DNA from: Rhodococcus jostii NBRC 16295
GTDB taxonomy: Bacteria > Actinomycetota > Actinomycetes > Mycobacteriales > Mycobacteriaceae
Length of the DNA stretch: 64,000 nucleotides
Reading direction: 5' to 3'
Assembly: GCF_001894825.1 (NCBI RefSeq)
Contig: NZ_BCWY01000038.1
Coordinates: forward strand, 1 to 64,000
The position numbers and the translations under genes are program-made. Below the pieces are notes generated by a model that worked only from the letters and a program-made list of their open reading frames with translations, did not search any database and was not told the origin of the DNA. Each line of letters opens with the position of its first letter. Positions within the stretch are counted from its first letter, which is position 1. Positions 2,022 to 31,586 of this stretch are shown here, one piece after another.

Positions 2022-5000
2022 TCATTGCACGGCCTCCGAGGAGAATCCGGTGTCGTCCTGATGGACGTATTCCGTCGCCACCTCCTGGGCGGGCAGGTCG
2101 GGACGAGCCGCGAGTGCCGTCAGCAACCGGCGGAGATCTGCGAGCATCGCGGCGGCGGTGCCGCGGTCGAAGAGGTCGGTGGCGTAGTCGAGTTCGAGGG
2201 TGAGCGCGGTGGGGCCGCGGGTCCACGACAGCCCGAGTTCGACTGGCGACGGGCCGGCCGGCTCGGCGGTACCGTCGCGTTCCCCGGTGCAGCGCACCGG
2301 GAAGGGCGGTGCTGCCGGGCCGACCGCGGCGGTCTCAGCGGACAGCTCCCGGCGGACGGCCGCCACGAGGTCCGGGAAGGTGGGGTCCTCGGACATGTCC
2401 ACGGCCACGAGCCGTGGCGGCACTCCCAGTGCCGGGACGGTGTCGACCGCCACCTCGTCCTGCGCGGTGTACCAGGCGAGGAGCGTGAGCCAGGCGGCGA
2501 GCAGTTCCGGGAGGCCCGGGGTGCCGTCGAACGGGGCCGTCACCCGCGCCGTCGAGTAGGTCGGTGCCGCGCTTGCCGGAGTGTGTCGGGGCCGGTCGGC
2601 GGGGACGTACGGGGGCGACACGGTGCGGGCCGCCGGGACAGCGGATGCGTCGGTGAGGAACACGCCGATCTGCTGTGTGCGAGGGGAATCCGCTATTCCT
2701 TGGAGGATGTGGACGTACTCGGCGCACAGCGCGGCCGCGGTCTGTTCGGTGAACAGTTCCGCGCTGAACTCGAGGCCCGCGGCCATGTCGTCCTCGCCGC
2801 CCCGTTCGGTGGTGACGAGGGTGAGATCGAATTTGGCCGTGCCGGACGGCACCCCGCCGAACGCGATGGCCGCGGGATCCTCCTGATCGAACAGCGTCTC
2901 GGTGAGTCCCTGCTGCGATTGCAGCGCCGGCAGTTCCTGGTGGACGTGGCAGACGTCGAACAGGGGTGTCCGGCTCAGGTCGCGGTCGCCGGTGAGCGCG
3001 GTGACGACGCGGTCGAACGGGATCTCCTGGTGTTCGAGGGCGCCCAGCACGACATCCCGTACGCGGGCGCACAGTTCGGTGATGCTCGGCTCCCCGGACA
3101 GGTCGGCGCGCAGGGCCACGGTGCTGTTGAAGTACCCGATCATGCCGGCGAGTTCGGACCGGTTGCGTCCGGTCGTCGGTGTCCCGACCACCAGGTCGCG
3201 CTGGTTGCTCCGGCTCGCCATGAGGAGGTAGAACGCGGAGAGCAGCACCACGAACAATGACACCGACTCCCGACGCGCCACCGCCCGCAGGCTCGTCGTC
3301 AGTTCCTCCGAGATCGTGAACGTGTGGAACGCGCCGGTGAAGTTCTTCCGCTCCGGCCGCGGGAAGTCCGTGGGCAGCCGCAGCAGCGGAACGTCGTCCA
3401 GAACCCCGCGCCAGTACTCCAGTTCGGGGGCGAGCACGGCGCTCGCGATCAACTCCCGCTGCCACAGTGCGTAGTCCCAGTACTGGACGGGCAGCGGCGT
3501 GAGGTCTGCGGGACGCCCGGACCGGCGGGCGGCGTACAGGGCGGGCAATTCCTGCTCGAAGATCCGCGGGGAACCCCCGTCGTTGACGGAGTGGTGGGTG
3601 GTGACCTGCAGGACGTGCTCGTCCGGGCCTATCTTGACGAGCAGCGCGCGGACGAGCGGGTCGGTGGCCAGATCGAACGGCGCGATGGCCGCCTCGTGCA
3701 CGAGGGCACGCGCCGCGGTCACCGGATCCGGTTCGCCCGACACGTCGGCGGTCCGGAAGAAGTCGCCGAGGGATTCCCGGATCCGGAGTTCGGGCTCCCC
3801 GTCGACGTCGACGTAGTTGGACAGCAGCACCCGGTGCCGGGCGGCCAGGTCGTCCCACATTCCCCGGACCGCGGACTCGTCGATCGGCCCGTGGAGTTCG
3901 CTGACCATCGGCAGGTTGTAGATGGTCGTCGCCGCGTCGAGTTGGTGGTGGAACCACATGCGTGCCTGCCCGAACGACATCACGTACTGCCCGCGCGGGG
4001 TGATCGGCGGCAGTCCGCCCGTCGCGGATGTGCCGTCGTCGAGGAGGGCGGCGAAATCGGCGACCCTGGGTCGCTCGTAGAGGTCGATCAGCTTGGGCCG
4101 CATCCCGTACTGCTCGGCCACCCGGTCGACGAGTTGCATGGCGATGAGCGAGTTTCCGCCGAGGTCGAAGTAGTCGTCTTCGGCGCCGACGTCGCTCTCC
4201 GTGTGGAGCAACTCCCGCAGGGTCGCCTGCAACCAGTCGAGGCTGTCTTCCGGGGCCACGGCGGTGGATGCCGGGTTCGGCGCGGGCAGGAGCACGTCCG
4301 GGGCGTCGTCCCATTCGGGTTGGTCCGGGAGATCGAACCAGCAGCGCGAGCCGCCCATCGGGTGACCGGGTAGCCGGACCCGCCAGGCGGTGTCGGCGGC
4401 GAGGTCGACGGCCGCCCAGTCGAGGTCGATTCCGCGCTCGTACAGCCCGGCCAGGAGGTGGGTGACGGCCCAGGACGTGTCCGGTGCCCGGACGATCTCG
4501 GCGTCCGGCCGGTCGCCGAGTGCGTCGGCGAGCAGCGTGCCGAGGCGTCCCTGCGGGCTCGGTTCCACGAAGACGACGGGTCCGTCCGACAGCATGCCCT
4601 TCGCGACGGCGACGAGCCGATCCGCGTCGATCGACGGGTCAGCGGCCGCGGCGGCGATGTCGGCGGCACCGACCGCCGAGAGGGTTTCGCGCAGATACCG
4701 GGCCGCGTAGCGGGACACTCCGCCGCTGAGGACGGCGTCGACGGTGACGCCTGCGGCGCGCAGTTCCCGGTGGACGGCGATCTGACCGGCGAGGAGATCT
4801 GCCACGTCGCCGGTGGCGGGGAGCTCCGGCGGGAGGGCGCGGCCACGCAGTCCGGCGGGCATCCGGTCGGGCGACAGCAGGAGAGCCACGGCGGGTGCGC
4901 GCCGGGTCGCGGGAGCGGATTGCCCACCGCGGGTGTCGAGTTCGGCGGCGCGCACGCGGAGTGCGTCCGACAGCTCGGCGATGGTGCGCGCCTGCACCGC

Positions 5001-6455
5001 CACCCGGTGGTCGTGATGCGGGCGGCCGCGGTTGAGGGTGAACGCGACGTCGTCGAGGTCGACCCCGCGCACCGCGGTCGCGAGTTCGGCGCACAGGACG
5101 GCCAGCGCGCCGGCGCTCTTCGCCGACACCCCGACGAGTCGCGGTGCGTCCTCGGCTGCGGATCGGGATACCGGGGCGCGCTTCGGCGGCTGCTCCACCA
5201 CGCAGTGCGCGTTGATTCCGCCGAGACTGAACGAACTCACCCCCGCCCGCCGGGGACCGCTCTCGTCGCTCCACGTCCGGGCCCCGGTGAGCACCTCGAT
5301 CCCGGTGCGGCCGAGGTCGACACCGCCGGTGGGGTGTTCGAAGTGCAGCGACGGGTACAGCTCGCCGTGCTCCACCCCGAGGATCGCTTTCACGAGACCG
5401 GACACTCCGGCGGCGTGGTCGAGGTGACCGATGTTCGTCTTCACCGAGCCGATGGGCAGGGCGCCGGGACGATCCTGGAACGCTGCCGCGATCCCTTCGA
5501 GTTCGACCGCGTCGCCGAGCGGGGTTCCGGATCCGTGGGCCTCGAGGTATCCGGCGGCGCTCGGGGCGAGCCCCGCGTTCCGCCAGGCCCGGGAGATGAC
5601 GGCCACCTGCGCCCGGGCGCTCGGGGAGCTGATGGTTGCGGACGAGTGACCACTGGACACCGTTGCGGTGCCGCGAATCACGGCATGGACGGGGACGCGG
5701 TCGGCGCGTGCCCGGGCCATCGTCGTGAGGAGAAGCACCGCGCCGCCCTCACCGACCGCCGTTCCGTCCGCGCTCGCGTCGAACGCCCGGCAGCGTCCGC
5801 CGGGTGACATCAGTTCGGCGGATCCCCCCGCCATGTCGGCGCGGATTCCGTTCACGCGCAGACTGACACCGCCCGCCAGGGCGAAGTCGGCGTCGCCGGA
5901 CCGCAGTTCCCGGCAGGCGTGGTGCACCGCGATCAGCGACCCGTTGCATCCCGAATCGACGGCATAGCAGGGCCCGGTGAGCCCGAGGTGGTACGCGATC
6001 CGCGCCGGGACGGCGAACGGGACGTTGCCCAGTGTGCTGAGCACACCCGGTTCCGCCCACATCGCCGGATATGTCGAGGTGGCCCCGCTGAACACCACCG
6101 CGGTCGCGCTGTCACGGAAGTCTGCGACGGAGTAGCCGGCGTCCTCGACCGCCTGATGCGCGAGGACGAGGGCGAGGCGCTGCTGCGGGTCGATCAGCGA
6201 CGCTTCGCGTTTCGACAGGGTGAAGTACGAGTAGTCGAATGTGGCGATGTCTTCGACGAATCCCATCGCGTGGTACTGCGACGGTGGGCCCAGCCCGGTC
6301 GCCTTCGCCCGGGACCGCGACAGTGGGCGCACCGAATCCCGGCCGGCGGCGAGGTTGGCGCGGAATTCCGCGAGGTTCGCGGCCTCGGGGTAGCGCGCGG
6401 CGATGCCGATCACGGCGATGGCGTCGTCGTCCGGTGTCGGGTGTCGCACCGTCAC
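2022..6455 (-). CDS. Hybrid PKS/NRPS: KS - inactive AT remnant - CP - C - half C
   Basis: A 1477-residue megasynthase with a GTG start, six bases after AGGAGG. A ketosynthase (about 12-425) has its Cys in an unusual context (VDSGCNGSL, about 169) plus EAHGSGT and KTNIGH. A normal AT of about 300 residues is replaced by a stretch of about 120 (roughly 515-640) in which the segment aligned to GHSxG reads VLSGGVSRYAA, so the serine position is Gly. The AT end (VVFVEPSPQGRL) and the post-AT linker follow. A carrier protein (LGGNSL, about 765) and a C domain with intact HHSVNDG (about 957) come next. The last 170 residues resemble the second half of another C domain. The KS looks catalytic, but the extender must come in trans, plausibly from the co-operonic hydroxymalonyl-ACP genes. 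Confidence 0.9.
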   Translation of the reverse strand: MTVRHPTPDDDAIAVIGIAARYPEAANLAEFRANLAAGRDSVRPLSRSRAKATGLGPPSQYHAMGFVEDIATFDYSYFTLSKREASLIDPQQRLALVLAHQAVEDAGYSVADFRDSATAVVFSGATSTYPAMWAEPGVLSTLGNVPFAVPARIAYHLGLTGPCYAVDSGCNGSLIAVHHACRELRSGDADFALAGGVSLRVNGIRADMAGGSAELMSPGGRCRAFDASADGTAVGEGGAVLLLTTMARARADRVPVHAVIRGTATVSSGHSSATISSPSARAQVAVISRAWRNAGLAPSAAGYLEAHGSGTPLGDAVELEGIAAAFQDRPGALPIGSVKTNIGHLDHAAGVSGLVKAILGVEHGELYPSLHFEHPTGGVDLGRTGIEVLTGARTWSDESGPRRAGVSSFSLGGINAHCVVEQPPKRAPVSRSAAEDAPRLVGVSAKSAGALAVLCAELATAVRGVDLDDVAFTLNRGRPHHDHRVAVQARTIAELSDALRVRAAELDTRGGQSAPATRRAPAVALLLSPDRMPAGLRGRALPPELPATGDVADLLAGQIAVHRELRAAGVTVDAVLSGGVSRYAARYLRETLSAVGAADIAAAAADPSIDADRLVAVAKGMLSDGPVVFVEPSPQGRLGTLLADALGDRPDAEIVRAPDTSWAVTHLLAGLYERGIDLDWAAVDLAADTAWRVRLPGHPMGGSRCWFDLPDQPEWDDAPDVLLPAPNPASTAVAPEDSLDWLQATLRELLHTESDVGAEDDYFDLGGNSLIAMQLVDRVAEQYGMRPKLIDLYERPRVADFAALLDDGTSATGGLPPITPRGQYVMSFGQARMWFHHQLDAATTIYNLPMVSELHGPIDESAVRGMWDDLAARHRVLLSNYVDVDGEPELRIRESLGDFFRTADVSGEPDPVTAARALVHEAAIAPFDLATDPLVRALLVKIGPDEHVLQVTTHHSVNDGGSPRIFEQELPALYAARRSGRPADLTPLPVQYWDYALWQRELIASAVLAPELEYWRGVLDDVPLLRLPTDFPRPERKNFTGAFHTFTISEELTTSLRAVARRESVSLFVVLLSAFYLLMASRSNQRDLVVGTPTTGRNRSELAGMIGYFNSTVALRADLSGEPSITELCARVRDVVLGALEHQEIPFDRVVTALTGDRDLSRTPLFDVCHVHQELPALQSQQGLTETLFDQEDPAAIAFGGVPSGTAKFDLTLVTTERGGEDDMAAGLEFSAELFTEQTAAALCAEYVHILQGIADSPRTQQIGVFLTDASAVPAARTVSPPYVPADRPRHTPASAAPTYSTARVTAPFDGTPGLPELLAAWLTLLAWYTAQDEVAVDTVPALGVPPRLVAVDMSEDPTFPDLVAAVRRELSAETAAVGPAAPPFPVRCTGERDGTAEPAGPSPVELGLSWTRGPTALTLELDYATDLFDRGTAAAMLADLRRLLTALAARPDLPAQEVATEYVHQDDTGFSSEAVQ

Positions 6456-6476
6456 TGTTGCCTCCTCCCTGCTGGG

Positions 6477-9400
6477 TCAGAACTCGTAGGTGGCGGGCGT
6501 GGACGCGTCACCTGTCCGGGTGGGGTTAGAGATCGCCTCTGCCTGCGCTGCCACTGTGACGAGGTCGAACAGCTGGCCGACCCGCAGAGTCCCGGGCCAC
6601 CGCTCCTCTAGGCGTCGCTGCAGTTCCACGACGCGGTGCGAGTTGCCGCCGACGTCGAAGAACCCGTCTTCGGGGCCGAAGTCGTCGTGTCCCAGCACCG
6701 CAGCCCAGGCCTCTGCCACCGACCGCTCCAGCGCGGTCCACCGTTGCCGCGAACCTCCACCCACAGGTTCGGTTCCGGCGACGAGTGCGCGCAGGGCGTC
6801 CTCGTCCACCGCGCCGTCGGCCGATCGCGGGACGGCGCCGAGTGCGACGAACCGTGCGGGCACGAGCCGGGCGTCGAGCCGCTCGGCGCTGAACTCCCGC
6901 AGGTCGTCCGCCATCGGAAGCACCGCCGCGGCGGCCGCTGGGACCCAGAAGGCGGTGACCCCGGCCGTGGTCGTGAGCACGACCGCTTCGCGGACCGCAG
7001 GGTGGCGTGCCACGACTTCCGTGACCGACCGCGTCGGCGTGTCGGGTGCGGTGACGTTCACCAGCTGCCCGGATCGGTTCCACCGGGCGAGGCCGCCGGT
7101 CCGGACCATCCGCGTGCCGGGGGCACCGAACGGGTTCGCGACGAACGTGGTGGCCGCCGCCCGCGCCGAGGTGTGGGGCTCCCGCGTGTCGGCGACGTAC
7201 ACCGCCCCGGTCACGCCCTCGGAGGCCATCCGCAGCCGCGGGTCGAGGACGACAGTATCCGCCGCCGCGCTCCATTCGCGGAGCCGGATCCGCTCGTCCG
7301 GGGCGAGCACGTCGATGTCGCCTACGGCTCCGTGCGGATCGGTGACGACCGCGGCGAGGATCCTGGTGAACCGATCGGCGAGCGCCTGGGCCGTCGCCGC
7401 ATCGAAAAGATCCGTGGAATAGGTGAATCCGGCCGTCATCCCCTCCGGCGTGCCGGACTCGTCGTACCGCTCGCGCACCGTCAACTGCAGGTCGAAGAGG
7501 GATACCTCGACGTCGGGTTCGAGCACTTCGGCGTGCAGGTGCGGGAGGGCAAGATCGGGATGTTCGGTGTTCCGGAATTCGAGCAGCACCTGGAACAGTG
7601 GTGAATACGACTGGGAGCGCGGGGGGTTCAGCGCCTCCACCACCCGTTCGAACGGCACGTCGGCGTGCGCGTAGGCCGCGAGGTCGGTGTCGCGGACCTG
7701 TTCGAGGAGTTCCTCGGCGGTCCCCGACACCCGGGTCCGGAGCACGAGGGTGTTGACGAACATCCCCACCACGTCGTCGAGGACGGCGTCGCCGCGGCCC
7801 GCCACCGGTGACCCGATCACCACGTCGCCGGAACCGCCCGACCGCGACAGCAGCACGGCGAGGGCCGTGTGCACGACCATGAATACGGTGCACCGCCGGG
7901 TCCTCGCCAGCGCCACCACATCCCGGTGCAGGTCGGCCCCGATGGAGAACTCCACGCGGTCGCCGGAGGGGGAACGACGCTGCGGGCGCTCACGGTCCGC
8001 AGGCAACTCGGTCACGGCCGGCGCACCGGCGAGGGTGGAACGCCAGTAGTCGAGTTGCCGCGAGACCAACGATTCGGGGTCGTCCTCCGAGCCGAGAAGT
8101 TCCCGCTGCCACAGCGTGTAGTCGGCGTACTGCACCGGCAGCGGCTCCCAGCCCGGCGCGCGACCCTCGGATCGGGCCGGGTAGGCCGTCATCACGTCCC
8201 GGGCCAATGGAACCATCGAGAACCCGTCCGCCGCGATGTGGTGCACCACGACGACGAGGACGTGCTCCCGCTCGCCGAGTGCGAACAGCCGCGCCCGCAT
8301 CGGGACCTCGGCGGCGACGTCGAATCCCGTCGTCACGAGATCGGAGATCTGGTCGCGAACAGGCGCCTCATCCGTCGACACCGTGAGTTGCGCGACGTGA
8401 CCCGCGCCGACGACGACCTGGGTGGGCTCCGCGTCTCCATACGGGTACCGGGTGCGGAGCGATTCGTGCCGGTCCACCACGTCGCCGAGGGCGGCGGTCA
8501 GCGCGTCGATGTCCAATTCACCCGACAGCCGGACGATCATCGCCACGTTGTAGGCGGGCGAGGACGGATCGAATTGATTGAGGAGCCACATCCGGCGCTG
8601 CGCCCACGACAGGGGAACCGTATCCGGGCGCCGCGACGCGACCGCCGCGGGCCGGGCCTCCCCACCGGCGGTCTCACGCGCGATCCGCGCTGCGAGGGCC
8701 CGCACGGTCGGGGATTCGAAGATCTCGCGGACACCGACGTCCGCGCCGAGAGCGGCCCCCAACCGCGCGACCACCTGCGTCGCGGTCAGGGAGTTGCCGC
8801 CGGACGCGAAGAAGTCGTCGTCGGCACCGACCGCACCGATCCCGAGGACCTCGGAGAACACCTCCGCCACCGCCGATTCGAACGGTGTCTCGGGTGGGCG
8901 GAAGATGCGGGGCGCGAATTCCGGCTCCGGCAGCGCATGCCGGTCGACCTTGCCGTTGGCGCCGAGCGGGAGGTGTTCGAGGACGGTCACGGACGCCGGC
9001 ACCATGAACGGGGCCAGCACCGACGCGGCGAACCCCAGCACCTCGGCGGTGTCGAGGTCCGCACCCTCCTCCGCCGTCACGTATCCGGCGAGAACCGCCT
9101 CGGCGGCAGGTGTCCGGCGGACCACGACCACGGCCTGCGCGACTCCAGGGCAGCCGGTGAGCGCGGCCTCGACCTCCCCCGGCTCCACCCGCTGACCACG
9201 CAGCTTCACCTGGAAATCGTTGCGGCCCAGATACTCCAATCGCCCGTCGCGCGTCCACCGCATGAGATCGCCGGTGCGGTACATGCGGGAACCGGCCTGG
9301 TCGAACGGGTTCGCGACGAACGAGGCGGCGGTCGACCCGGACCGCCGGTGGTAGCCGCGCGCCAGACCCTCGCCCAGCACGTACAGCTCACCCACCACAC

Positions 9401-12400
9401 CGACCGGAACCGGGCGCAGCCACTCGTCGAGGACGAGTTCGCGGACACCCCGCATCGGGTGGCCGATGCGCACGGGGTCGCCGGGTGCCATCGGGTCACC
9501 GACGTTCGACATCACCGTCGTCTCCGTCGGCCCGTACCCGACGAGCAGGGTCCGCCCGGACGCCCAGCGGGCCAGCAACTCCGGCGGGCAGCGTTCGCCA
9601 CCGACGACGAGTGCCCGCAACAGGCGTAAGCCGCGCGGGTCGATCGTGGCCAGGACCGCCGGTGTGACGAATGCGTGCGTGATCCGCTCTGCCGCCAGTA
9701 GTTCCGTCAGTGCGGCACCGCCGTATACCTGTGGCGCCGCGATGACCAGACGCGCACCGGCACCGAAGGCCATGAGGTACTCGAGTATCGTCGCGTCGAA
9801 TCCGGGCGACGCGAGATTCAGGACGCGCGACGCATTCGTCGTGGCATACCGGGTGCGCTGCTCGATCGTGAAGTTCTGCAACCCGGCGTGCGGGATCACG
9901 ACGCCCTTCGGCGTGCCCGTCGACCCGGACGTGTACATCAGGTACGCCGGATGGTCCGGCCGCAGTGGCACCACGCGGTCTGCGTCGGTGATCGCCTTGG
10001 ACTCCCATCTCCGCGTCGGCCCGGGGTAGTCGAGGAGCAGCCACTCCACCCCGTCGGGCATCCGCTCACGCTGTTCGGCGACGGTGAGTCCCGCCGCCGC
10101 CCCGGAGTCGGCGAGGATGTCGGCGATCCTTCCGGGCGGGAGGCTGGGGTCCACCGGCACGAACGACGCACCCGACTTCGCCACCGCCCACACCGACACC
10201 ACCAGTTCCACGGATCGGAAGAGTCCGATCGCCACGTGGTCTTCGGGTCCGATTCCGCGGCGGATCAGCACCCAGGCCAGGCGGTTCGACCAGTCGTCGA
10301 GTTCGCGATACGACATCACCGCGTTGCCGTAGGACAGGGCGACGGCGTGCGGATCCCGCGAAGCCGCGGCCGAGAGGATCTCGGGGAGCAGCCGTGTCGT
10401 GCCGCCGGGCCGGCCGCGCACCGGGACGAGTGCGTCGCGTTCCGCGGCGCCCAGGAGATCGATGCGCGCGAGCGGCACCTGAGGGTCGGCGACCACCGTC
10501 TCGAGGAGCCGCAGGAACCGTTCGGCGAAGGTCCGGACGGTGGCGGCGTCGAAGATGTCGGTGGCATAGGTGAATCCGGCTCCGATCCCGGCCGGTCCGC
10601 CGTCCGCCGCGAATCGTTCGGCCAGTGTCAGCTGCAGGTCGAAGGTGGAGACGGACACACCGAGGTCGATCTCCTCCACCCCCACTTCCGGCAGGCTCGG
10701 GGTCGGCCTCGTCACGTCCTGGAACTCGAACAGCACCTGGAACAGCGGCGCGTGCGCGGTGGTACGGGGGAGGTCCAGGGCCTCGACCACCCGCTCGAAC
10801 GGCACCTCCGCGTGTGCGAATGCCTCCAGATCGCGGTCCCGCACTGCGGTGAGGACGGTGGCGAAGGAGTCGGCGCCGTGCACCGGCGTGCGCAGGGCCA
10901 GGGTGTTGACGAACATGCCGACCACGTCGTCGAGTGCGGCCTCCCCGCGCCCCGCCACCGCTGATCCGATCACCACGTCGTTCGTGCTCCCCAGGCGCGA
11001 CACCAGCACCGCGAGCGCCGCGTGCGCGACCATGAACACCGTCGCGTCGTGTTCTCGTGCAAGGGCGACCACGGCCCGGTGCAGACGGTCCCCGATCTCG
11101 AACGACTCCCGCGCCCCGGCGAGCGAGCGGTGTTCGGGGCGGGCGCGATCCATCGGCAGATCCGTCACCACCGGTGCGTCGGCGAGCGCGGACCGCCAGT
11201 ACCCGAGTTGGCGGGACATCAGCGATCCGGGATCGTCCTCCGATCCGAGTAGTGCCCGTTGCCAGTTGCTGTAGTCGGCGTACTGGACCGGCAGCGGCAC
11301 CCAGTCCGGCGCGTGCCCGTGCACCCGGGCGGTGTACGCGGCCGTCACGTCCCGGGCGAGCGGGGCCAGCGACAACGCGTCCGCCGCGATGTGGTGCACC
11401 ACCAGGGCCAGGACGTGTTCACGCGGACCGACCTCGAACAGGTGCGCCCGCAGCGGAACCTCGGTGGTCACCTCGAAGCCCGCCGACAGCGCTCCCGCGA
11501 GCCGGTCGCGGAGGTCGCGCTCCCCCGCCACCGCCACCGCACGGAGGGCAGGCACCGCGTCCGCCGCCGGGATCACCGACTGCACAGGCGTGTCCTCCCG
11601 CATCGGGAAGACCGTCCGCAGCGCCTCGTGCCGGTCCACCACGTCCGTCAACGCGGCGTGCAGCGCTGCGACGTCGAGTGAGCCGTGCAGCCGGAACGCC
11701 GCCGCGATGTTGTAGGCGGGTGACGTCGTGTCGAACTGGTCGAGGAACCACATCCGCGTCTGCGCGAGCGACACCGGGGCGGGTGTGGAGCGATCGGTCG
11801 CCACCAGCGGCGGCCGGCCCGTCGCATCCGCCCGGCCCACCCGGGTCGCCAGCGACCGCACCGTCCGCGCCTCGAAAACGTCGCGCACACCCACACCCGC
11901 GCCGAGCGCCTGGTGGATCCGCGCCACGACCTTCGCCGCGATCAGCGAGTTGCCCCCGAGCGCGAAGAAGTCGTCGTCGACACCGACGGCGGGCACGCCG
12001 AGCAGCGCGGCGAAGATGACCGTGAGCGACTCCTCGACGGCGGTGCCCGGTGCCGCGAATGCGGCACGGGAGTCGGTCAGCGGCGCCGGGAGTGCCGCGC
12101 GGTCCAGCTTCCCGTTGACGGTGAGCGGCAGCCGGTCGAGAACGGTCAGCGAGTTCGGAATCATGTACGACGGCAGTGCCGTTCGCGCGTACTCCAGAAC
12201 CCTGTCCGTCACAGCGATCGCACCCGCGTCGGGAACGACGTACGCGGCCAGTGCCGGACCGGTCACGGGATCGTCGCGCATCGTCACGACCACCTGAGCG
12301 ACCCCGTCGCACCGGCCCAGCACCCACTCCACCTCGCCGAGTTCCACCCGGAATCCCCGGATCTCGACCTGGAAGTCTTCGCGCCCGAGGTATTCGAGGC

Positions 12401-15400
12401 TGCCGTCTCGCCGCCACCGCACGATGTCCCCGGTCCGATACATCCGGGTTCCGGCCTCGTCCGCGACGAAGCGTGCTGCCGTGAGCGCGGCGCGGCCGAG
12501 GTAGCCACGCGCCACTTGTGTTCCGGCCACGTACAGTTCGCCCGCCACACCGACCGGCACCGGATGCAGGCGCGGGTCCCGCACCGACACGTGCAGCCCG
12601 GGGATCGCCCGCCCGATCACGCTCGTCCAGGCGGCGACCGCGAGTCCGCGGTCGAGCCGCAGGTGACTCACGTGCACCGTCGTCTCGGTGATGCCGTACA
12701 TGTTCACGAGCACGGGCGCGTCCTCGTCGTGCCGGGAGTACCAGCGTTCAAGCTGCCCGAGGTCGAGCGCCTCGCCGCCGAGCACGACGTAGCGCAGCGG
12801 CAGGGCGTCGGCACCGTCGTCGGTGGAGGTGGCGTCGATCAGCTGGAAGAACGCGGTCGGGGTCTGGCTCAGCACCGTCACCCGTTCGCGGCGCAGCAGT
12901 TCGAGGAACGCGACGGGCGACCGGGTGGTGTCGAAGTCGACGACGACGAGGGTCCCGCCGTGCAGCAGCGCGCCCCACAGTTCCCAGACGGAGAAGTCGA
13001 ACGCCGGGGAGTGGAACATCGTCCACACGTCGGTGTCCCGGAACCGGAACAGGTCCCGGGTGCTGGTGAACAGAGCGACGACGTTGCGGTGCGACACCGC
13101 GACGCCCTTCGGCCGTCCCGTCGACCCCGACGTGTAGACGACGTACGCCAGTGCGCCCGGGTCGATCGGCGCCCGGTCCGCGTCGGTCAGCGGCGTCGCG
13201 GGGAGGTTTCCGAGATCGTCGGTCACCGAATCGAGCAGCAGGACGGGAATGTCCGACGTCGGCAACGACGGCGCGGTGTCCCCGGTGGCCAGGACGCACG
13301 CCGGGCGGGCGTCGTCGAGCACCAGGGCGGAGCGCTCACCGGGGTGGTCGGCGTCGATCGGGACATACGCCGCCCCTGCCTTGACGACGGCGACGAGCGC
13401 GACGACCAGCACCGCCGATCGTGGCAGCGCGACCGCGACCGTCGACTCCGGACCGACGCCCCACGAGAGGAGTTGGCGTGCAAGACGGTTCGACCGGGCG
13501 TCGAGTTCCCCGTAGCTCAGCCGCTCGCCACCCGACACGACGGCGGTGGCGCCGGGGGTCCGCGCCGCCCGGGCCGCGAACAGTGCGCCGAGCGTCGTGT
13601 CCTGGGCGGGGCCCGCGTGCCGGGTCGACCACTCCCGCAGCAGCGCGTGTTCGGCCGGTTCGACCAGGTCGATGTCCCCGATCACGACGGACGGGTCCGT
13701 GGCTGCGGTGTGGGCGGCGCGCACGAAGCGGCGAGTGATTGCCTGGGCGGTGTCGGCGTCGAACAGGTCTGTCGCATAGGTGAATCGGACCGACTCCGCC
13801 GACACCGTCACCTGCAGGTCGAGGTCGCCGAGTTCGTGGGGCCGGTCCGAGAATTCGAGCAGCACCTGGAACAGCGGCGCGTGGGACACCGACCGCGGCG
13901 GGTCCAGCGCATCCACGATCCGCGAGGCGGGTACGCCGCGGTGAGCGAACGCCTCCGCCTCCGCGTCGCGCACCGCGTCGACGAACTCGGTGAATCGGTC
14001 GGCGGCGCGGACGCGGGTCCGCAGCACCACGACGTCCGCGTCCGTCCTCGCCCCGAGGACGATGTCGTCCGTTCGGGCCGAACGAGACAGCACCACCGCG
14101 AGCAGCGCGTGCGTCACGGTGGCGACGTCCGTCCGGTGTTCTGCCGCGAATGCCCCCAGGGTGCGGTGCACTTCCGGATCGAGCACGGCGTCGACGACGG
14201 CGCTGCGGCCGGACGGCCGGGCCGGACGCGGCCGGTCGGTGGGCAGGTCCAGCACCGGGGGCGCGTCGGCGAGTGTGCGCGTCCAGAAGTCGAGCCGGGC
14301 CGTCTCCTCGTGGACGGCGCCGACCGCGTTGTCCGCGTCGGCTGCGAGGAAGTCGCCGAGCAGTTCCACGAACCGCCGGTGGTGCGCGCCGACCTCGTCG
14401 GCGTCGTACCGGTTGGGGTTGGCCAGGAAGTGGACGAAGGTCCGGACCGGGGCGCCGCTCTGGTACACGTTGACGAGCAGGTCCTCGACCGGGCCGGACG
14501 TGACGATGTGGTACTCGCCGACGAGCTGCCCCAGGGCGAGTTCCTGATGGAAGAGCATCACATTGACCATCGGACCCGACAGCGACTCCGCCGCAGCGGC
14601 CCCCGCGTCGCGCCGGATGTCGCCGAGCCCGAGACGCTGGTGCCGCAGCGCACCTAACAGGTCGAGTTGCACCCGCTCGACCAACTCCCCCACCGTGTCC
14701 TCGGGACGGATCTGCACGGGAAGCGGCACGATGCCCGCCACCATGCCCCCGGACCGTCGCAGGGTCGCGGTGGTCCTCGCCGACACCGGAATCTTCACGA
14801 GCACATCCCGGCGCCCGGTCATCCTCGACAGGTAGCAGGCGAACGCGGCGATGATCTCCGCCGTCCCGTGGGTGCCGGCCTCGCCGAGGGCACGTTCCGC
14901 CGCGTCCGGGAGCGGTGCGGCGGCGTCGGTGCTCGTGGCGACCGCGGGACCGGTCCTCCGCGCGAGGCTCGATCCGGGCCCGAGACCGTCGATCCGGTCC
15001 GCCCAGAACTGCCGGTCCGCGGCGAAGCGACTCGACGACCGGTACTGCTGATCGACGTCGTACAGGTGTCGGGGGTCTGCGGCCTCGTTCGCCGGCAGGT
15101 CCCGGCCGAGGACCGCCGCGGTGTACCGGGCCGCGATGCGGTTGAGCATCGTCATCGCGCCGTAGCCGTCGAGGGCGACGTGGTGAATCTTGCTGTACCA
15201 CAGGTAGTGTTGGTCACCGACGCGGAGAATCGAGGATTCGACGAGGCGGTCGCGAGTGAGATCCAGCGGCGTCTCGCAGTCTGCGTGCATCCACCGCCGG
15301 GCCGCGGCCACCGGCTCGGTGTCTCCGCGGAAGTCGACCAGCCCGATCGACCGGTCCGTGGCCGGGTCGACCAACTGGAACGGCTGACCCTCCCGGTCGA

Positions 15401-15641
15401 TCAACCGCAGGAACGGCGAGCCGAATTCGTCCGCGGTGGCCACGGTGGCCTCACGCAGGAGGTCGACGTCCAGGTCGCCGTGCACCTCGACGTACTGGGC
15501 GATGCACAGCGGCACGTCGGGGGCCAGCTGCTGGGCCAGCCACGCCTCGTACTGCGCGGACGACAGCGGGAACGGCAGTTCCTCGTGCTCGGTGGCGGCG
15601 TGGTCGGTGGCGCCGGAACGCTCGTCACTCACCGTCACCAC
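6477..15641 (-). CDS. Non-ribosomal peptide synthetase, three modules, third A domain eroded
   Basis: A 3054-residue NRPS. Order: C1 (HHVALDG, about 152), a second C domain lacking its N-terminal half (about 445-675), A1 (about 680-1180; [22 protein letters not shown]), PCP1 (LGGNSL, about 1229), C2 (HHIAADA, about 1415), A2 (about 1750-2235; [22 protein letters not shown]), PCP2 (SGGNSL), C3 (HHIAADG, about 2465), a truncated A domain (about 2795-2950) and PCP3 (VGGNSH, about 3000). My reading of the A1 specificity residues is D-F-W-S-V-G-M-V-H, close to the Thr pattern; A2 reads D-A-L-F-V-G-G-V-M, which I cannot assign. The third A keeps only the C-terminal subdomain, with YRTGDL changed to VRTGGL and the A10 Lys lost. 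No epimerase or thioesterase is present. It overlaps the upstream A-domain gene by 17 nt. Confidence 0.93.
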
Positions 15642-17202
15642 CTCCGCCCGGGAGCAGCATCCGGCGCAACGCCGCCTCGTCGACCTTGCTGCTCGGTGCC
15701 AGCGGCAACGCGCCCAACGCGAGAAACCGGTCGGGCACTGCCTGCGCGACGAGGCGTTCGGCGCAATGGGCGATCAGGTCGCGCGGTGTGGGCAGCAGGG
15801 TCGCCGCGGCCGCGGGTACCCAGAACGCGGTCAGCGCCGCCTCCCCGTACTCGTTGGCGGTCGCGAGGACCACGGCCTGGTGCACCGCGGGGTGGCTCTC
15901 CAGGGCGGCCTCCACCGCGTGCCTCTCCACCCGGGCGCCGCGCACCTTCACCTGTCCGTCGCACCGTCCACAGAATTCGATGTCGCCGTGCGGATCCACG
16001 CGGGCCAGGTCACCCGTGTGGTACATCCGGGCACCCGTCCCCGCCGCGAACAGGTCGGCGACGAAGCGGGCTGCCGTGGCCGCCGGCCGGGACGCGTACC
16101 CCTCGGAGATCTGGGGACCCCCGACGTACAGGTCACCCACCGTCCCGTCGGGCACCACCCCCAGTTTCGCGTCGAGGACGTAGGCGGTGCTCGCCCCGAG
16201 CGGTCTGCCGATCGGGGCGATCGAGGCGGGCACTTCGCGCACCGGGTGAGCCAGGCAGCTGACGGTCGTCTCCGTCGGACCGTACTCGTTGCTCAGGGGG
16301 ACCCCGGGCAGCACCGCGCGGTGCTGTTCGACGAGTGTGCCCGGAAGCGCTTCGCCCGCAAGGGTCACCAACCGCAGATGCCCGCGCAGCGGGGCGAGGT
16401 GCGGCAGCAGCAGCCGGTAGAAGGAGGGGGTCGCGACCAGGTGGGTGGTCCGCCACTTCCGTGCGAGTGCGGCCACGGCGTCGGCGTCCATCAGTTCGTG
16501 CGCGTCCGGGAGCACACTGGTGCCGCCGGTGCACAGCGCCCACAGGGTCTTCAGCAGGGATCCGTCCCACGTGAGCCGGAACGCGGAGAACGTGACCAGG
16601 TCGTCCTCGTCGTAGTCGTAGTTGCGGCCGTCGACCATGCTCGCGAGGTTGGCCCGGCTCGCGACGACGGCCTTGGGGATGCCGGTCGACCCGGACGTGG
16701 TGATCACGTACGCAGGGGTGGCGGCAGGCACGTCCTCAGGGAGATCGGCGGACGGTTCGGCGTCGGGTGGGTGGCCGGTGGCCCGGTCGTGCAGCGCCGG
16801 AACGTGTTCGCCCGCACTGCGGGCCAGCGTCCGGACCGATTCGGTGGGTGTCTGCGGGTCCGCGGATCCGAAGACGATCGCACCGCAGTCGATGTCGTCG
16901 AGGAGGGTACGAAGCAGAGCCGCCGGATGTCCGGGCTCGATCACACACCACGCCGCGCCCACCCGCAGCGCGGCGATCATCGCCACCACCGTGTCGGCAC
17001 TCTGCCGCTGATGGACAAGCACGACCTGACCGGGCCGCACCCCCTCGGCGCGGAGTTGCCGCGCCAGTGCCGCACTCGCCGAATCGAGTTCGCGGTACGT
17101 CAGCGACCGATCGCCCACCACGATCGCGATCCGGTCGGGAACCCGCAGGCACTGGCGAAGGATCTCGGCTGCCACTCCGCCTCGCGCGACCACGTCCGTC
17201 AT
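15625..17202 (-). CDS. Stand-alone NRPS adenylation protein
   Basis: A 525-residue amino-acid adenylation protein without its own carrier domain. Core motifs are present: TSGSTGIPK (about 165), the A4 Asp in [18 protein letters not shown], and an A10 Lys in the variant SSKVDE. Specificity residues read about D-G-L-V-T-A-E-V-S, which I do not match to a known substrate. Its C-terminal 90 residues are very similar to the truncated A domain in the downstream NRPS (shared AFWVPAAAA and [18 protein letters not shown] stretches). It is therefore a candidate to charge PCP3 in trans, replacing the lost domain. It overlaps the fkbH-like gene by 4 nt upstream and the NRPS by 17 nt downstream. Confidence 0.9.
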
Positions 17203-18248
17203 GGGAGCGCACCCTCTCCGAGAACCCGGACGTGACCGGCGCCGGCCGTCGCCCCTCGGGAATCGTCGAACACCAGCATCGTCCGCTCGGCGGCCGAGTC
17301 GAGCACCTCGAAGCCCGCGAAACGCAGGGTCACCAGCATGACCCGGTTGACATCGGTGGGCACGAACTCGGCGAGGGCCCGTCTACCGTGGGCACGCGCC
17401 CGGTCGACGACGTGCCGGATCAGCGCCGTGCCCACGCCACGGGACATCACCCGGCACGACATCAGCAGCAATTGCAGGACGGAGTTCTCGCCGCGTATCT
17501 CCGACACCGCGAGCCCGATCGTGCCGTACCCGCCGAACCGGTCGCCGAGGGACGCGACGAGCACCTCGTGGTCGTCCGACGCACACAGGCGGCGCAGTTC
17601 GTCGATGTCGAAAGTTCTTCCCGTCGTGTTGAGTTGGTGTGAACGGACGGTCAGCTCGTGGGCACGGTCGAGGTCGTCCTCGGTCGCTCTGCGGACCGTC
17701 ATGACCAGGTCGAGGGAGGCCAGGAACTCGGAGTTCGAACCCGGAAAAACCTGTTCGCTCGCCTGCCGGACCCGCTCGGCGTGATACAGCGACCTGCGCT
17801 GCCGGGCCTCCGCCGTGACGGCGGGCGGCGTCAGCTCGGGAAGGTCCGGGAACGACGCGATCTGCTCGGCCCGGTAGCAACGCACGGGGGGCAGCGCCTC
17901 GGACACCTCGGCACGCTCGACGGGATCGTTGTCGACGAAGGCGATGGTGTCGAGGCCGACGTTCAACATCTCCGAGATGCGGCGCACGGCCTCCGACTTC
18001 GGCCCCCAGCCGACGTCGATCGCGCAGAACAGTTCCTCGAGTCCGTGCAGGCGCAGATGCGCGGCGGCGGGTTCGAACTCCCCGCGGCTCGCCACCGCGT
18101 GCAGGATCCCCCGGCGGTCGAGCACGTCCAGTGCCCGCAGGGCGTCCGCGTTCGGGACGGGGGCATCCTGTTCGAGGACGACACCGTCCCACAGGGTGTC
18201 GTCCAGATCCCAGACCATGCACTTGACCGTCTGCTCCACCGCGATCAC
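17199..18248 (-). CDS. FkbH-like glyceryl-ACP synthase (HAD domain plus GNAT domain)
   Basis: A 349-residue protein starting at a GTG that overlaps the KAS III stop codon (GTGA). The N-terminal half is a HAD-like domain with the phosphatase motif DLDDTLWDG (about residues 13-21) and FVDNDPVERAEV later. The C-terminal half (about 190-340) is a GNAT-like fold. This HAD+GNAT architecture is that of FkbH, which transfers and dephosphorylates a glyceryl group from 1,3-bisphosphoglycerate onto an ACP, the first step to hydroxy- or methoxymalonyl-ACP and also to tetronates. The adjacent FkbI-, FkbJ- and FkbK-like genes favour the malonyl branch over a tetronate. Confidence 0.9.
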   Translation of the reverse strand: MIAVEQTVKCMVWDLDDTLWDGVVLEQDAPVPNADALRALDVLDRRGILHAVASRGEFEPAAAHLRLHGLEELFCAIDVGWGPKSEAVRRISEMLNVGLDTIAFVDNDPVERAEVSEALPPVRCYRAEQIASFPDLPELTPPAVTAEARQRRSLYHAERVRQASEQVFPGSNSEFLASLDLVMTVRRATEDDLDRAHELTVRSHQLNTTGRTFDIDELRRLCASDDHEVLVASLGDRFGGYGTIGLAVSEIRGENSVLQLLLMSCRVMSRGVGTALIRHVVDRARAHGRRALAEFVPTDVNRVMLVTLRFAGFEVLDSAAERTMLVFDDSRGATAGAGHVRVLGEGALP

Positions 18249-19255
18249 GCCCCGTCCCGCGGCGTGTCCGGCAGCCGTCGGAGCAATGCGCTGCTCCACG
18301 CCGCGACCGGGCTGCTGTTCATGATCACGCAGTAGTCGCCGGGCATCTGGGACGGCGCCACGCGCTCCAGGTTCGCCGCGACGTCCACGGATCCGAGGTG
18401 GCCGAACCGCGCGAGGTTGTCGCCGCACACGGGATCGATGGTGACGTCGAGTGCCTCCTGCCAGAACGCGAACGCACCGACCGACAGGTTCTGCATGAGA
18501 AAGACGCCGATCGCGTCCTGCTGCAGTCCGTTCCGGGCCAGCAGTTCGGCGTTGATCTCCGTGAACCGCTTCCGGCTTTCGACCGCGAGGCGAAACGAGT
18601 ACGTCGGCTCGTCGGCGCATACCTCGGCCCACTCGGCCTCGCGGACGTCGCGGTAGTCGATACGGAAGAGGTCGGCGTATTTCCCGTCGCTGCGGATTAT
18701 CTGGTCGACGAGTTCGTACCGGCCGGTCCCCGACGTCGTCAGCAGCAGCGCCGCGGCGCCGTCGCCCAGCAACGTCATCGGCGACCGGTACCGCGACCGG
18801 GTCGGGGTCTTCGCCGCCGCCACGACGAGCACGTTCCGGCACCGGGGGTCGCCACGGAGCAGCGCCGATGCCAGCGTGAACGCCGCCGACACGGACACAC
18901 ACCCCAGATCCCCCACCCCGGTGGTGAACGCCTGGCTCGCACCGAGCCGGTGTTGCAACCGGGTGGACTCGGACGCGAGCAGATACTGCGGAACCCGGCC
19001 CTGGACGAGGAGCAGTGCGTCGAGTTGCGTCGCGTCGAGACCCGACTTCGTCAGCGCATCTTCCGCCGCCGCGTGGGCCAGATCCGCCTCGGCGAGACCG
19101 ATTCCGATCCGCACCGTGTCGATTCCCAGCGACAGTGCGTGCTCGCGCTGCGCGATCGGCAGTTCGTCGAGTTCCGGCAGGCCCGCCACGGTCACCTCGT
19201 CGTCCGGGAACCAGAGCGCGACCGATTCGATCGTGACCGGTCGGTCGGCCGTCAT
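18245..19255 (-). CDS. KAS III (FabH)-like ketosynthase/acyltransferase with altered catalytic residues
   Basis: A 336-residue thiolase-fold protein of the FabH family. The active-site Cys is kept (GDLGCVSVSAAF, about 117). The HQAN segment reads FLMQNLSVG, with no His, and the GNTSAAS segment reads FGHLGSVD, where Asn is His. The Cys-His-Asn triad for decarboxylative condensation is therefore not conserved. FabH-like proteins with changed triads often act as acyltransferases rather than condensing enzymes. Because the PKS in this operon lacks a working AT, this protein is a candidate to move the hydroxymalonyl unit or starter onto the line; that role is inferred. It overlaps its neighbours by 4 nt on both sides. 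Confidence 0.85.
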   Translation of the reverse strand: MTADRPVTIESVALWFPDDEVTVAGLPELDELPIAQREHALSLGIDTVRIGIGLAEADLAHAAAEDALTKSGLDATQLDALLLVQGRVPQYLLASESTRLQHRLGASQAFTTGVGDLGCVSVSAAFTLASALLRGDPRCRNVLVVAAAKTPTRSRYRSPMTLLGDGAAALLLTTSGTGRYELVDQIIRSDGKYADLFRIDYRDVREAEWAEVCADEPTYSFRLAVESRKRFTEINAELLARNGLQQDAIGVFLMQNLSVGAFAFWQEALDVTIDPVCGDNLARFGHLGSVDVAANLERVAPSQMPGDYCVIMNSSPVAAWSSALLRRLPDTPRDGA

Positions 19256-20349
19256 CGCGCACCTCCCCCGAGCACGTAGTCACCGATCTGGAGTTCGGCG
19301 ACCTCCGTCGCGCCCTCGATGATCTCCATGACCTTGGCGTCCCGGAAGAAACGCCCCACCCGGCTACCGGGGGCGCACCCGGCGGCGCCGAGCACCTGAA
19401 CGGCCTGCCGGCTCACCGACCCGGCGACCCGGGCCGCGGCGTACTTCGCGGCGATCGTGGCGAACAGCGCGCTCGGCTCACGCGCGTCGCGTTGTTCGGC
19501 GGCGCGTTCGCACAGGGCGCGGGCGCCGGCGGCATCCACCCAGCTACGACCGAGGATCGCGCGAACCGAGTCGTGCTCGGACAACACGGCGCTCCCCTGC
19601 ACCCGGGTGGACGCGTGCGCGACGGTGTCGGCGAGGCACGCGCGCGTCATCCCGGCACACCCCCACGCGATGGTGTACCGGCCGTGGTCCAGGGCCGTGC
19701 CCACCACGTGGGACAGTCCGAAACCCGGCGGTGCGATCAGGTGATCCGCGGGGACGACCACGTCGTCGAACGCGATGTGCGCGATCCTCGCGCCGCGCAT
19801 GCCCAGCTGTCCGTGGATCGGTTCGACGGAGACTCCGGGTGAGTCGGTCTCGACGAGTGCGGTCGTCAGCCCCGCCGGCGATCGGCCGAGGACGAGCAGC
19901 ACGTCCGCCACCTCACCGAACGTGACCCACAGCTTCCGGCCCGAGATCCGGTGGTCGGAGCCGTGCGGCTCGAAACCGGTACTCACAGACGAGAGGTCGC
20001 TGCCGGCACCGGTTTCGGTGGCGGCGAAACCGGCGAGGAGTTCGCCGGTGGTCAGGGCCGGCAGCCACTGAGCCCGCTGTTCCGCGGTACCCCACCGATC
20101 GACCGTGGCGTTGACCATCCCCTGCACGGTCAGCAGTGACCGCAGCGACGTGCAGACCGCCCCGAGTCTTTCTGCGACCGAGCCGAGTTCGGCCGCGGTC
20201 AGGCCGAGCCCACGGCAGTCCTTCGTCCGGTCGAGGCCGAGGACACCGGCCCGCGCGGCAGCCCCGATGACGTCGACCGGCAGTCCGGTCTCGTCCCAGT
20301 TGGCGGCGTCGGTCTCGGCAGAGGCGACGAGCGTGTCGATCCCGATCAC
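19252..20349 (-). CDS. FkbI-like acyl-ACP dehydrogenase
   Basis: A 365-residue flavin-dependent acyl-CoA dehydrogenase family protein. Visible family features are the FAATETGAGSD segment (about residue 108), the KLWVTFGEVAD stretch, the HGRYTIAWG helix region and the catalytic Glu region MEIIEGATEVAEL near the C-terminus. In fkb-type operons this enzyme acts on an ACP-bound glyceryl derivative, oxidising the C3 aldehyde toward the hydroxymalonyl thioester. Here it lies between the ACP (4-nt overlap) and the KAS III-like gene (4-nt overlap), so expression should be tightly coupled. Taken alone, it could not be told from a fatty-acid acyl-CoA dehydrogenase. Confidence 0.87.
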   Translation of the reverse strand: MIGIDTLVASAETDAANWDETGLPVDVIGAAARAGVLGLDRTKDCRGLGLTAAELGSVAERLGAVCTSLRSLLTVQGMVNATVDRWGTAEQRAQWLPALTTGELLAGFAATETGAGSDLSSVSTGFEPHGSDHRISGRKLWVTFGEVADVLLVLGRSPAGLTTALVETDSPGVSVEPIHGQLGMRGARIAHIAFDDVVVPADHLIAPPGFGLSHVVGTALDHGRYTIAWGCAGMTRACLADTVAHASTRVQGSAVLSEHDSVRAILGRSWVDAAGARALCERAAEQRDAREPSALFATIAAKYAAARVAGSVSRQAVQVLGAAGCAPGSRVGRFFRDAKVMEIIEGATEVAELQIGDYVLGGGAR

Positions 20350-20645
20350 GGCGACGCCCCGTCCGTCGCACGAAGCTGCTCGCCCCGCTTTCTCCGTATG
20401 AACCCCGCCACCCGGGCCGCGGTGCGGAAGTTGTCGAGGTCGAGATCTTCGACCTCGACCACGACGTCGTGGGAGCCCTCGATGTACGTGACGATCTCCA
20501 GGGCCCGCAACGAACTCACCAATCCCAGGGTGAAGTAGTCGTCGTCGGGTCCGAGTTCCGTCGACGTGATCGAGCTCAGGTACTGCCGTAGCTGCTCGAC
20601 CAGCTCGTCACGGGACTCGGGCACAGGGGCATTTGCTGTGTCCAT
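20346..20645 (-). CDS. Acyl carrier protein, FkbJ-like
   Basis: A 99-residue acyl carrier protein. The phosphopantetheine site is in FTLGLVSSLRALEIV (Ser about residue 40), and the helix pattern and length fit a discrete ACP. I chose the ATG at 20645 because it leads directly into a normal ACP N-terminus; an ATG 33 nt upstream is possible. It should carry the glyceryl and then the hydroxymalonyl group made by the FkbH/K/I homologues of the operon. It is the most upstream gene of the NRPS/PKS run and lies 44 nt after the last sulfur-operon gene. No terminator is evident there, so read-through from the sulfur operon cannot be excluded. Confidence 0.88.
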   Translation of the reverse strand: MDTANAPVPESRDELVEQLRQYLSSITSTELGPDDDYFTLGLVSSLRALEIVTYIEGSHDVVVEVEDLDLDNFRTAARVAGFIRRKRGEQLRATDGASP

Positions 20646-20689
20646 GAGCCTGGGATTCCCAATTGGACCAGCGTTCAATCATCTCGATC

Positions 20690-22764: not shown

Positions 22765-22766
22765 GC

Positions 22767-24925: not shown

Positions 24926-24929
24926 GACG

Positions 24930-29613: not shown

Positions 29614-29616
29614 GGG

Positions 29617-31263: not shown

Positions 31264-31405
31264 CGAGAACTCCGTGATCTCGAAGAGTGCCGTGTGCACT
31301 GCCCGTCGAATCGGCAGTGCTCACGCGCACAGGAAGGTGAGGGACACCGGATCCGACGCGGATGCGGTGTGAAGAGCCGGAACCCCGAGGTGACGGGGTG
31401 TCAGG

Positions 31406-31489
31406 TCAGCTGTGACAGATCGAGGTGGACAGCCGGCAGAGATCGACGTGGAGACGCCCCCAGGCGCTCACGAAACCTTCGGTCAACAT
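31406..31489 (-). CDS. Cys-containing leader peptide, 27 aa
   Basis: A 27-codon reading frame starts at ATG 31489, with GGAGG five bases upstream, directly after the SAM riboswitch. It ends in RLHVDLCRLSTSICHS. This R-x-H-V-D-L-(C/G)-R-x-x-S-x-x-C pattern is that of the small 'putative leader peptide' family found before sulfur-assimilation genes in Streptomyces and relatives. A second copy with the same core lies at 38633-38707 in the other sulfur operon. Cys codons sit at positions 18 and 25, so ribosome stalling at low charged Cys-tRNA could control the downstream leader hairpins; that mechanism is inferred. Confidence 0.8.
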   Translation of the reverse strand: MLTEGFVSAWGRLHVDLCRLSTSICHS

Positions 31490-31496
31490 CGTTCCT

Positions 31497-31586
31497 CCAT
31501 CGATCCCGGCGGTAGCACCCGCACCCGCAGGGCGGGGGGTTGCTGCGACGTCAACGAGCCAGGTCTCTCGGTCGCTCTGGATGGTC
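31497..31586 (-). ncRNA. SAM riboswitch (S-box, SAM-I type), left sulfur operon
   Basis: On the minus strand the sequence follows the S-box core in order: a P1 5' arm CCATC (31580-31584), CAGAGCGACCGAGAGACC, TGGCTC, the GTTGACGTCGCAGCAACC core, a variable hairpin, GGTGCTACCGCC, and GATCGATGG, whose GATGG (31497-31501) pairs with the 5' arm. The aptamer is almost identical to the one at 38718-38810; only the variable hairpin differs. The Shine-Dalgarno GGAGG of the leader peptide (31494-31498) overlaps the P1 3' arm by 2 nt, so SAM binding could limit its translation. It lies upstream of the 31263-20690 operon. Confidence 0.88.

Follow-up and report, generated by a model that had tools for sequence, protein, structure and literature searches.

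Introduction

Enzymes homologous with β-ketoacyl synthase III (KAS III) that act as acyltransferases have been described in several pathways. ChlB3 (chlorothricin) moves 6-methylsalicyl, and CerJ (cervimycin) attaches malonyl to a sugar; the triad of ChlB3 is Cys113-His296-Asp301, and its His-Asp pair also occurs in CerJ, a malonyl mover (PMC9573744). Another paper describes SfaN from the pathway of sanglifehrin A, a hybrid of polyketide synthase (PKS) and nonribosomal peptide synthetase (NRPS), as an acyltransferase that stores and shuttles thioesters, citing a reference that by its title concerns (2S)-2-ethylmalonamyl starter unit loading, and AfcL from Burkholderia as a Cys/His/Asp enzyme that carries a peptide chain (PMC12186527). 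Here, we analyzed the first 64 kb (the window) of contig NZ_BCWY01000038.1 (C38) of Rhodococcus jostii NBRC 16295, whose genome comprises 9.7 Mb in 286 contigs. An operon at its start combines genes for hydroxymalonyl-acyl carrier protein (ACP) with a KAS III-like gene and a PKS module whose acyltransferase (AT) is dead. We consider it rather probable from the sequences that the operon encodes part of an intact hybrid NRPS-PKS line, in which the KAS III-like protein loads hydroxymalonyl from the carrier protein FkbJ onto the AT-less module in trans.

Like ChlB3 and CerJ, the KAS III-like protein has KAS III homology, a Cys nucleophile, and a His five residues before an Asp, the pair standing in GHLGxxD both in ChlB3 and in this protein; its proposed role differs, namely to load an AT-less PKS module with an extender within a set of Fkb genes. 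SfaN also differs, its unit being, by citation only, a starter (PMC12186527). Zwittermicin A biosynthesis has by family the same four FkbH, FkbI, FkbJ, and FkbK activities and uses the AT domain ZmaA-AT (PMC4207774), whereas the present line combines a dead AT with an additional KAS III-like gene. With trans-AT PKSs, the line shares a ketosynthase (KS) and a carrier without a working cis AT and the retention of an AT remnant, but no AT-type match was present in the KAS III-like loci read, and the enzyme proposed as loader descends from KAS III. R. opacus B4 and R. jostii RHA1 are reported to have relatives of a Nocardia hybrid cluster (PMC4035055), which might be the line studied here. Precedents exist for each part (hydroxymalonyl-ACP genes, KAS III-like acyltransferases, AT-less modules, and the repeats called GRINS). 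The open-licence literature searched yielded neither their combination, a KAS III-like enzyme loading an ACP-bound extender onto a module that lacks an AT, nor a named product of the line.

The hydroxymalonyl genes and the AT-less module

The operon lies on the minus strand and is read leftwards as FkbJ, FkbI, the KAS III-like gene, FkbH, a stand-alone adenylation (A) enzyme, an NRPS, the KS protein, and FkbK, after which a further NRPS (NRPS3) begins. An earlier note on this DNA had assigned FkbH-, FkbI-, FkbJ-, and FkbK-like genes, a KAS III-like gene, a stand-alone A protein, an NRPS, and a KS module, all of which were recovered where it had placed them; it had listed the KAS III-like gene without connecting it to the missing AT. 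By family, the hydroxymalonyl-ACP gene set is complete. The FkbJ-like stand-alone ACP (20346..20678, minus strand as for all features below; PF00550, 26.7 bits) likely starts at the ATG at 20645, which agrees with the end of the region in the earlier note, and is 79-97% identical in five other Rhodococcus genomes (working labels G195, G230, G259, G238, and G110). It is followed by the FkbI-like acyl-CoA/ACP dehydrogenase (19252..20349; PF00441, PF02770, and PF02771), which is conserved in relatives. The FkbH-like HAD/glyceryl-ACP enzyme (17199..18248) matched TIGR01686 with 245 bits against a cut-off of 146.65, and the FkbK-like 3-hydroxyacyl dehydrogenase (1166..2008) matched PF02737 and PF00725. 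In hydroxymalonyl-ACP pathways, FkbG is the comparison for an O-methyltransferase; as the earlier note had it, none was found in family scans of the operon genes.

The PKS-NRPS protein (2022..6455, 1477 aa) was read as KS-AT0-T4-C4-halfC from matches to PF00109, PF02801, PF16197, PF00550, and PF00668, where T denotes a carrier and C a condensation domain. Its KS domain (5166..6440) has the triad Cys170-His307-His344. By alignment and by hhalign comparison with working ATs, AT0 (4266..5135) is a shrunken, dead AT in which Gly replaces the Ser of GHSxG. The stretch from KS to T4 retains the KS-AT linker and a short AT tail, which aligned with working ATs over 65 columns (hhalign probability 78.5, E 1.7e-5). 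The GHSxG serine was gone in all 17 aligned modules from Rhodococcus, a second genus of the family (g23), the genera g52 and g33, and Streptomyces aurantiacus, with Gly in 16 and Pro in the 17th (G645, poor alignment), and the KS Cys-His-His was retained in the same 17 of 17. The dead AT is common to modules of the families f1, f3, and f21 and of S. aurantiacus; it is old and occurs in several genera. The claim that the PKS has no working AT was borne out, since Pfam recognized no AT in it and none of the eight PF00698 matches of the genome lies on contig C38. The module therefore resembles those of trans-AT PKSs in lacking a working AT, and a discrete FabD-like AT was not found in the cluster: no AT match occurred in 20 sequences from KAS III-like loci, some of which cover the cluster partly. 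No ketoreductase domain was found in the line.

Active site of the KAS III-like protein

The KAS III-like protein (18245..19255; PF08545, 33.8 bits) also gave profile matches to FabH and ChlB3. Cys119, His286, and Asp291 were invariant in 24 of 24 distinct homologues (29 rows minus duplicates; alignment A2 holds 14 of the 24). FabH works through a Cys-His-Asn triad, with positions taken here from profile alignments. Gln stands in place of the FabH catalytic His in 22 of the 24 homologues, and His (His286) in place of the Asn in all of them, so that the FabH triad is not present in the KAS III-like protein, and we rejected its reading as a normal ketosynthase on account of this change. The GHLGASD of ChlB3 chain 7EQI aligns with GHLGxxD here; in the four FabH chains compared, the motif reads GNTSAAS or GNTSAAT. 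By its active site, the protein should act like acyltransferases of the ChlB3/CerJ type.

Distribution of the cassette

The KAS III-like gene was found in 18 of 301 genomes of the family, namely 14 of the 28 listed genomes of the same genus (own included) and four of g23. It was rare outside the family, with seven of 394 genomes (own included) in a class-wide sample at E 1e-30. Named matches with 91-98% identity came from a Rhodococcus metagenome-assembled genome, R. wratislaviensis, R. koreensis, and R. opacus, and culture-collection strains of the latter three species carry the gene. The full set (KAS III-like, FkbJ, FkbI, FkbH, A-T, KS-AT0-T-C, and FkbK) recurs in the four g23 genomes, in one of which (G258) the stretch starts inside FkbI and leaves FkbJ and most of FkbI outside. 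G556, G534, and G625 have the set as well, and G531, G645, and G555 have looser versions of it. In most loci read, the KAS III-like gene adjoins FkbI, FkbJ, or FkbH. The cassette appears to travel between lineages.

Streptomyces aurantiacus has the parts on three contigs. Contig C98 (53 kb) holds a KAS III-like gene, A-T, and KS-AT0. FkbH, FkbK, and a stand-alone FkbJ were not matched on it, and FkbI was matched by its last 40 residues only. FkbJ and another KAS III-like gene stand at the end of C513, and FkbI, FkbH, FkbK, and an AT-less KS at the end of C277; these two ends may be neighbors. On C277, FkbH matches in two pieces, so its frame may be broken there. As C98 combines the KAS III-like gene and the module without the precursor genes, it ties the protein to the module and not to the making of the precursor.

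As a control, we took 60 of 75 FkbH matches of the class, having dropped G000, G534, G556, and G555:C21 (already fetched or own), six very long fused frames, and five that were partial or below the cut-off. Nine of the 60 loci also hold FkbI, and the KAS III-like gene was in none of these nine. AT matches (three valid AT queries for both sets) occurred within the stretch in eight of the nine; the control stretches are 3.5-20 kb long, and such a match need not belong to a hydroxymalonyl-using module. In the 20 sequences from KAS III-like loci, by comparison, an AT match at E 1e-8 was found in none and a KS in 17. Because the latter loci were found by searching with that gene, the control was sampled differently, and related genomes are not independent, the comparison indicates association, not proof.

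Conservation of the line

The earlier note called the line eroded, a description that does not fit the cluster. In the seven other Rhodococcus genomes read (the five above, G284, and G266; the fetched stretches of G266 and G284 miss some 5′ genes), FkbJ, FkbI, the KAS III-like gene, FkbH, A, the KS protein, and FkbK have open frames in every case in which the whole gene was fetched. The first NRPS is open in six of seven (broken in G238) and NRPS3 in five of seven (broken in G238 and G259). The ratios of nonsynonymous to synonymous substitution rates (dN/dS), computed against three relatives, were all below 0.54: 0.08-0.11 for KS, 0.09-0.13 for C4, 0.12-0.13 for the KAS III-like gene, 0.16-0.18 for FkbH (0.12-0.22 over FkbH/I/J/K), and 0.18-0.19 for the stand-alone A. 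Values for dead parts were 0.34-0.43 (half-C domains), 0.32-0.40 (C0, the first domain of NRPS3), 0.21-0.32 (AT0), and 0.26-0.30 (A0, the adenylation remnant of the first NRPS). Dead domains thus evolve about 1.5-4 times faster than most working ones and have the look of remnants under relaxed constraint, but A1 (0.24-0.31) and T1 (0.26-0.53), which are not dead, evolve as fast and blur this contrast. With frames mostly open, purifying selection, and a dead AT that is old and common to several genera, we rejected decay of the cluster: the line is intact and conserved.

Proposed mechanism and alternatives

From these genes, domains, and active-site residues, their conservation, and their co-occurrence, we infer a plausible substrate and acceptor for the KAS III-like protein, action of the stand-alone A in trans, an order of chain growth, and a product. 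FkbH, FkbK, and FkbI would build hydroxymalonyl on the carrier protein FkbJ. The Cys of the KAS III-like protein would take the hydroxymalonyl from FkbJ and hand it to T4; no decarboxylation is expected in this step, since the ketosynthase His is replaced and the His-Asp pair of the ChlB3/CerJ type is present. The stand-alone A enzyme, substituting for A0, would charge T3 at the end of the first NRPS in trans, and the KS would couple the peptidyl chain on T3 with the hydroxymalonyl unit to give an α-hydroxy-β-keto unit. C4 would then pass the chain to NRPS3, where three residues would be added, the first with a putative epimerization (E) domain, before release by a thioesterase (TE). The earlier suggestion of a trans-loaded assembly line, unlike a standard siderophore cluster, fits with a stand-alone A related to A0 and with an acyltransferase triad in a KAS III-like protein beside a dead AT.

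Several results weigh against this mechanism. In whole-length profile comparison, the KAS III-like protein matched FabH (2EBD, 5.9e-25) ahead of ChlB3 (5.9e-20) and CerJ (8.2e-7); it is not closer overall to ChlB3/CerJ than to FabH, and with FabH as the top match our claim is limited to acyltransferase-like action, not membership of the ChlB3/CerJ clade. Two of the 24 homologues have His at the ketosynthase site, and an AlphaFold model of the protein, made from six sequences, had a mean pLDDT of 42.6, too low for use. No FkbH or FkbK was seen in G531 within 28 kb around the KAS III-like gene, and no KS on the 17.8-kb contig of G555. On S. aurantiacus C98, where FkbH-K do not adjoin the protein, its substrate may differ. 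The pairing of a dead AT with the KAS III-like gene cannot be counted as independent, and only the converse is informative, namely KAS III-like loci without an AT and other FkbH and FkbI loci with one. A stand-alone AT-type frame of 306 aa is present on contig C123 of the same genome, and NRPS frames are broken in G238 and G259.

Some of these points bear on other explanations. The KAS III-like protein might be an acyltransferase or shuttle for a peptidyl or starter chain or another acceptor, like AfcL in AFC-BC11, with the PKS carrier loaded otherwise. The Cys/His/Asp chemistry of AfcL, a KAS III-like enzyme carrying a peptidyl chain in an NRPS pathway, gives this a precedent (PMC12186527), and S. 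aurantiacus C98, which has the protein without FkbH and FkbK, speaks for it as well; the gene, however, adjoins FkbI, FkbJ, or FkbH in most loci read and was not found beside an AT match, and chain transfer is already provided by T3, KS, T4, and C4, so that we consider such a shuttle unlikely. If instead the housekeeping FabD loaded plain malonyl on the AT-less module, hydroxymalonyl would be used elsewhere or not at all. The frame on C123 could supply such an enzyme, but FkbH/I/J/K are under purifying selection and adjoin the only KS module seen in the operon, and this explanation seems quite improbable to us.

That the protein is a true ketosynthase making or priming an acyl chain, as proposed for MypJ of mycoplanecin (PMC10817943), would agree with its KAS III homology, but we think it very improbable in view of the replaced FabH His (22 of 24) and Asn (24 of 24) and the GHxxxxD pair of acyltransferases in all 24. 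A decaying, silent remnant would account for the faster evolution of the dead domains than of KS and for the broken frames in G238 and G259; it is scarcely credible next to the low dN/dS values, the open frames of most genes in the relatives read, and a dead AT that modules of f1, f3, f21, and S. aurantiacus have in common while their KS triad stays intact.

Returning to hydroxymalonyl loading by the KAS III-like protein, we regard a wider proposal as about evenly balanced: the KAS III-like gene with FkbH/I/J/K may mark a class of AT-less modules in several actinobacterial families, in which a KAS III descendant has replaced the AT for loading of an ACP-bound extender, the switch having occurred a single time and preceding the split of Rhodococcus, its sister genus, and the other lineages or their exchange of the cassette. 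Polyketide engineering hinges on the enzyme that loads the extender. A discrete, ACP-specific, KAS III-like hydroxymalonyl loader would add a new tool to AT domains and FabD-like trans-ATs. Genome mining would also gain a marker, namely a KAS III-like gene that has GHLGxxD and lies in an FkbH/I/J/K set.

The first NRPS and the stand-alone A enzyme

The first NRPS (6477..15641, 3054 aa) was read by domain scans and motif search as C1-halfC-A1-T1-C2-A2-T2-C3-A0-T3. HHxxxDG is retained in C1 (14307..15581, HHVALDG), C3, and C4, and C2 reads HHIAADA. The half C domains that had been said to be scattered through the line were confirmed as partial or dead C domains at 13626-14306, at 2046-2660, and within 1-1179: the first (PF00668, profile 195-455, 95 bits) is without HHxxxDG, the second, at the C-terminus of the PKS protein, covers profile 401-445 below the cut-off (PF00668, 23.5 bits, E 2.7e-5), and the third, C0, has HRLVNDE in place of HHxxxDG. 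The third module likewise proved, as previously described, to be without a working A domain, with only a C-terminal scrap left (A0, 6747..7289; PF13193, 22.9 bits, below the cut-off of 24.5). MbtH, which the earlier note had not seen, has a single match in the genome, on contig C2.

The stand-alone A enzyme (15625..17202; PF00501 and PF13193), our proposed loader of T3 in trans, is closer to A0 than are four other A domains of the line. Identity with A0 is 40.6-43.4% for the seven Rhodococcus copies compared and 35.6% for the G278 copy, vs. 32-35% for A1, A2, A4, and A6. In Rhodococcus, the NRPS sits between the stand-alone A and T3, and outside Rhodococcus the two form an A-T pair; in three g23 genomes (G109, G283, and G144; loci L040, L043, and L055), FkbH and A lie in one open frame of 1098-1228 aa with a carrier domain next. 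The relation of A0 to the stand-alone A and this arrangement suggest that an original A-T pair was split by an inserted NRPS, which would have left A to work in trans. Together, the stand-alone A, the remnant A0 in the module that this enzyme would charge, and an adjoining A-domain repeat that may be under gene conversion hint at how such lines may be rebuilt.

NRPS3 and its adenylation-domain repeat

The window holds only the start of NRPS3 (1..1179), identified as the C-like domain C0 by domain scan, motif search, and comparison with relatives, and the gene is cut at the contig edge. NRPS3 has 3,821-3,851 aa in G230, G195, and G110. Pfam scans of G230 and G110 gave four condensation-type domains, three A, three T, and a C-terminal thioesterase, and NRPS3 in the relatives was read as C0-A-T-E-C-A-T-C-A-T-TE, in which one condensation-type domain is taken as E by our reading of its sequence, Pfam calling it condensation. 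In the own genome, C201 and C161 hold pieces of NRPS3 with 85% and 88% identity to G230, respectively, and the matching TE end lies on C161. The TE is thus missing from the window because its last gene is cut by the contig edge; the earlier statement that no thioesterase is seen is right for the window and wrong for the cluster, and with a TE in the relatives and a matching piece on C161 we rejected a line without a release domain. A putative esterase gene (PF00756) stands convergent at the end of the line at L036 9085-10044 (G238), and similar frames of 319 aa lie beside the line in G195 and G230.

NRPS3 of the relatives has a repeat of 1.52-1.55 kb, made up by its first two A domains, with 98.4-99.9% identity within each of seven Rhodococcus genomes. 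The repeat belongs just left of window position 1 (seen in L045 979-12519 of G230, in L046, and in L047). Position 1 corresponds to residue 393 of NRPS3 and the repeat of G230 begins near residue 387, which would account for the end of the contig at this point. Between six species, the identity is 79-96%, and a six-genome tree groups the two copies of each species together, so that they evolve together, as under gene conversion. The GC skew of the coding strand is 0.54-0.67 in six genomes; in G230, the third codon positions of the repeat have 411 G, 83 T, 10 C, and 2 A, and the repeat as a whole has 380 T and 101 A, a TA skew of about 0.58.

GRINS are repeats of about 1 kb, often more than 90% identical, with GC and TA skews above 25% (PMC10394414). 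The repeat of NRPS3 has the size, near-identity, and both skews of this description, and lies inside adenylation domains just outside the window; it is consistent with GRINS-like concerted evolution in an NRPS. As the first two A domains are kept near-identical, they would be expected to add the same amino acid twice, the first then epimerized. Among 83 sequences scanned, the only other stretch with a GC skew of at least 0.45 in size was L109 18001-19500 (G396:C1; -0.52 to -0.57), which adjoins a KS-AT module.

Genes upstream of the operon

From 20690 to 38251, the window carries genes for at least five luciferase-like monooxygenases, for a dipeptide-type ABC transporter, and for two binding proteins, as well as another ABC gene, and this region looks like a separate nutrient-use locus. 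The luciferase-like gene nearest to the operon belongs to the MsnO8 family, and its end lies about 45 bases upstream of the FkbJ ATG. We considered the luciferase-like genes as part of the cluster and tentatively rejected this: the nearest one adjoins the operon in G195, G230, G259, and L023, but no match above 120 bits was present in G238 and G110. Within the same region, a DUF1684 open frame at 22767-23744 overlaps luciferase-like frames at either end.

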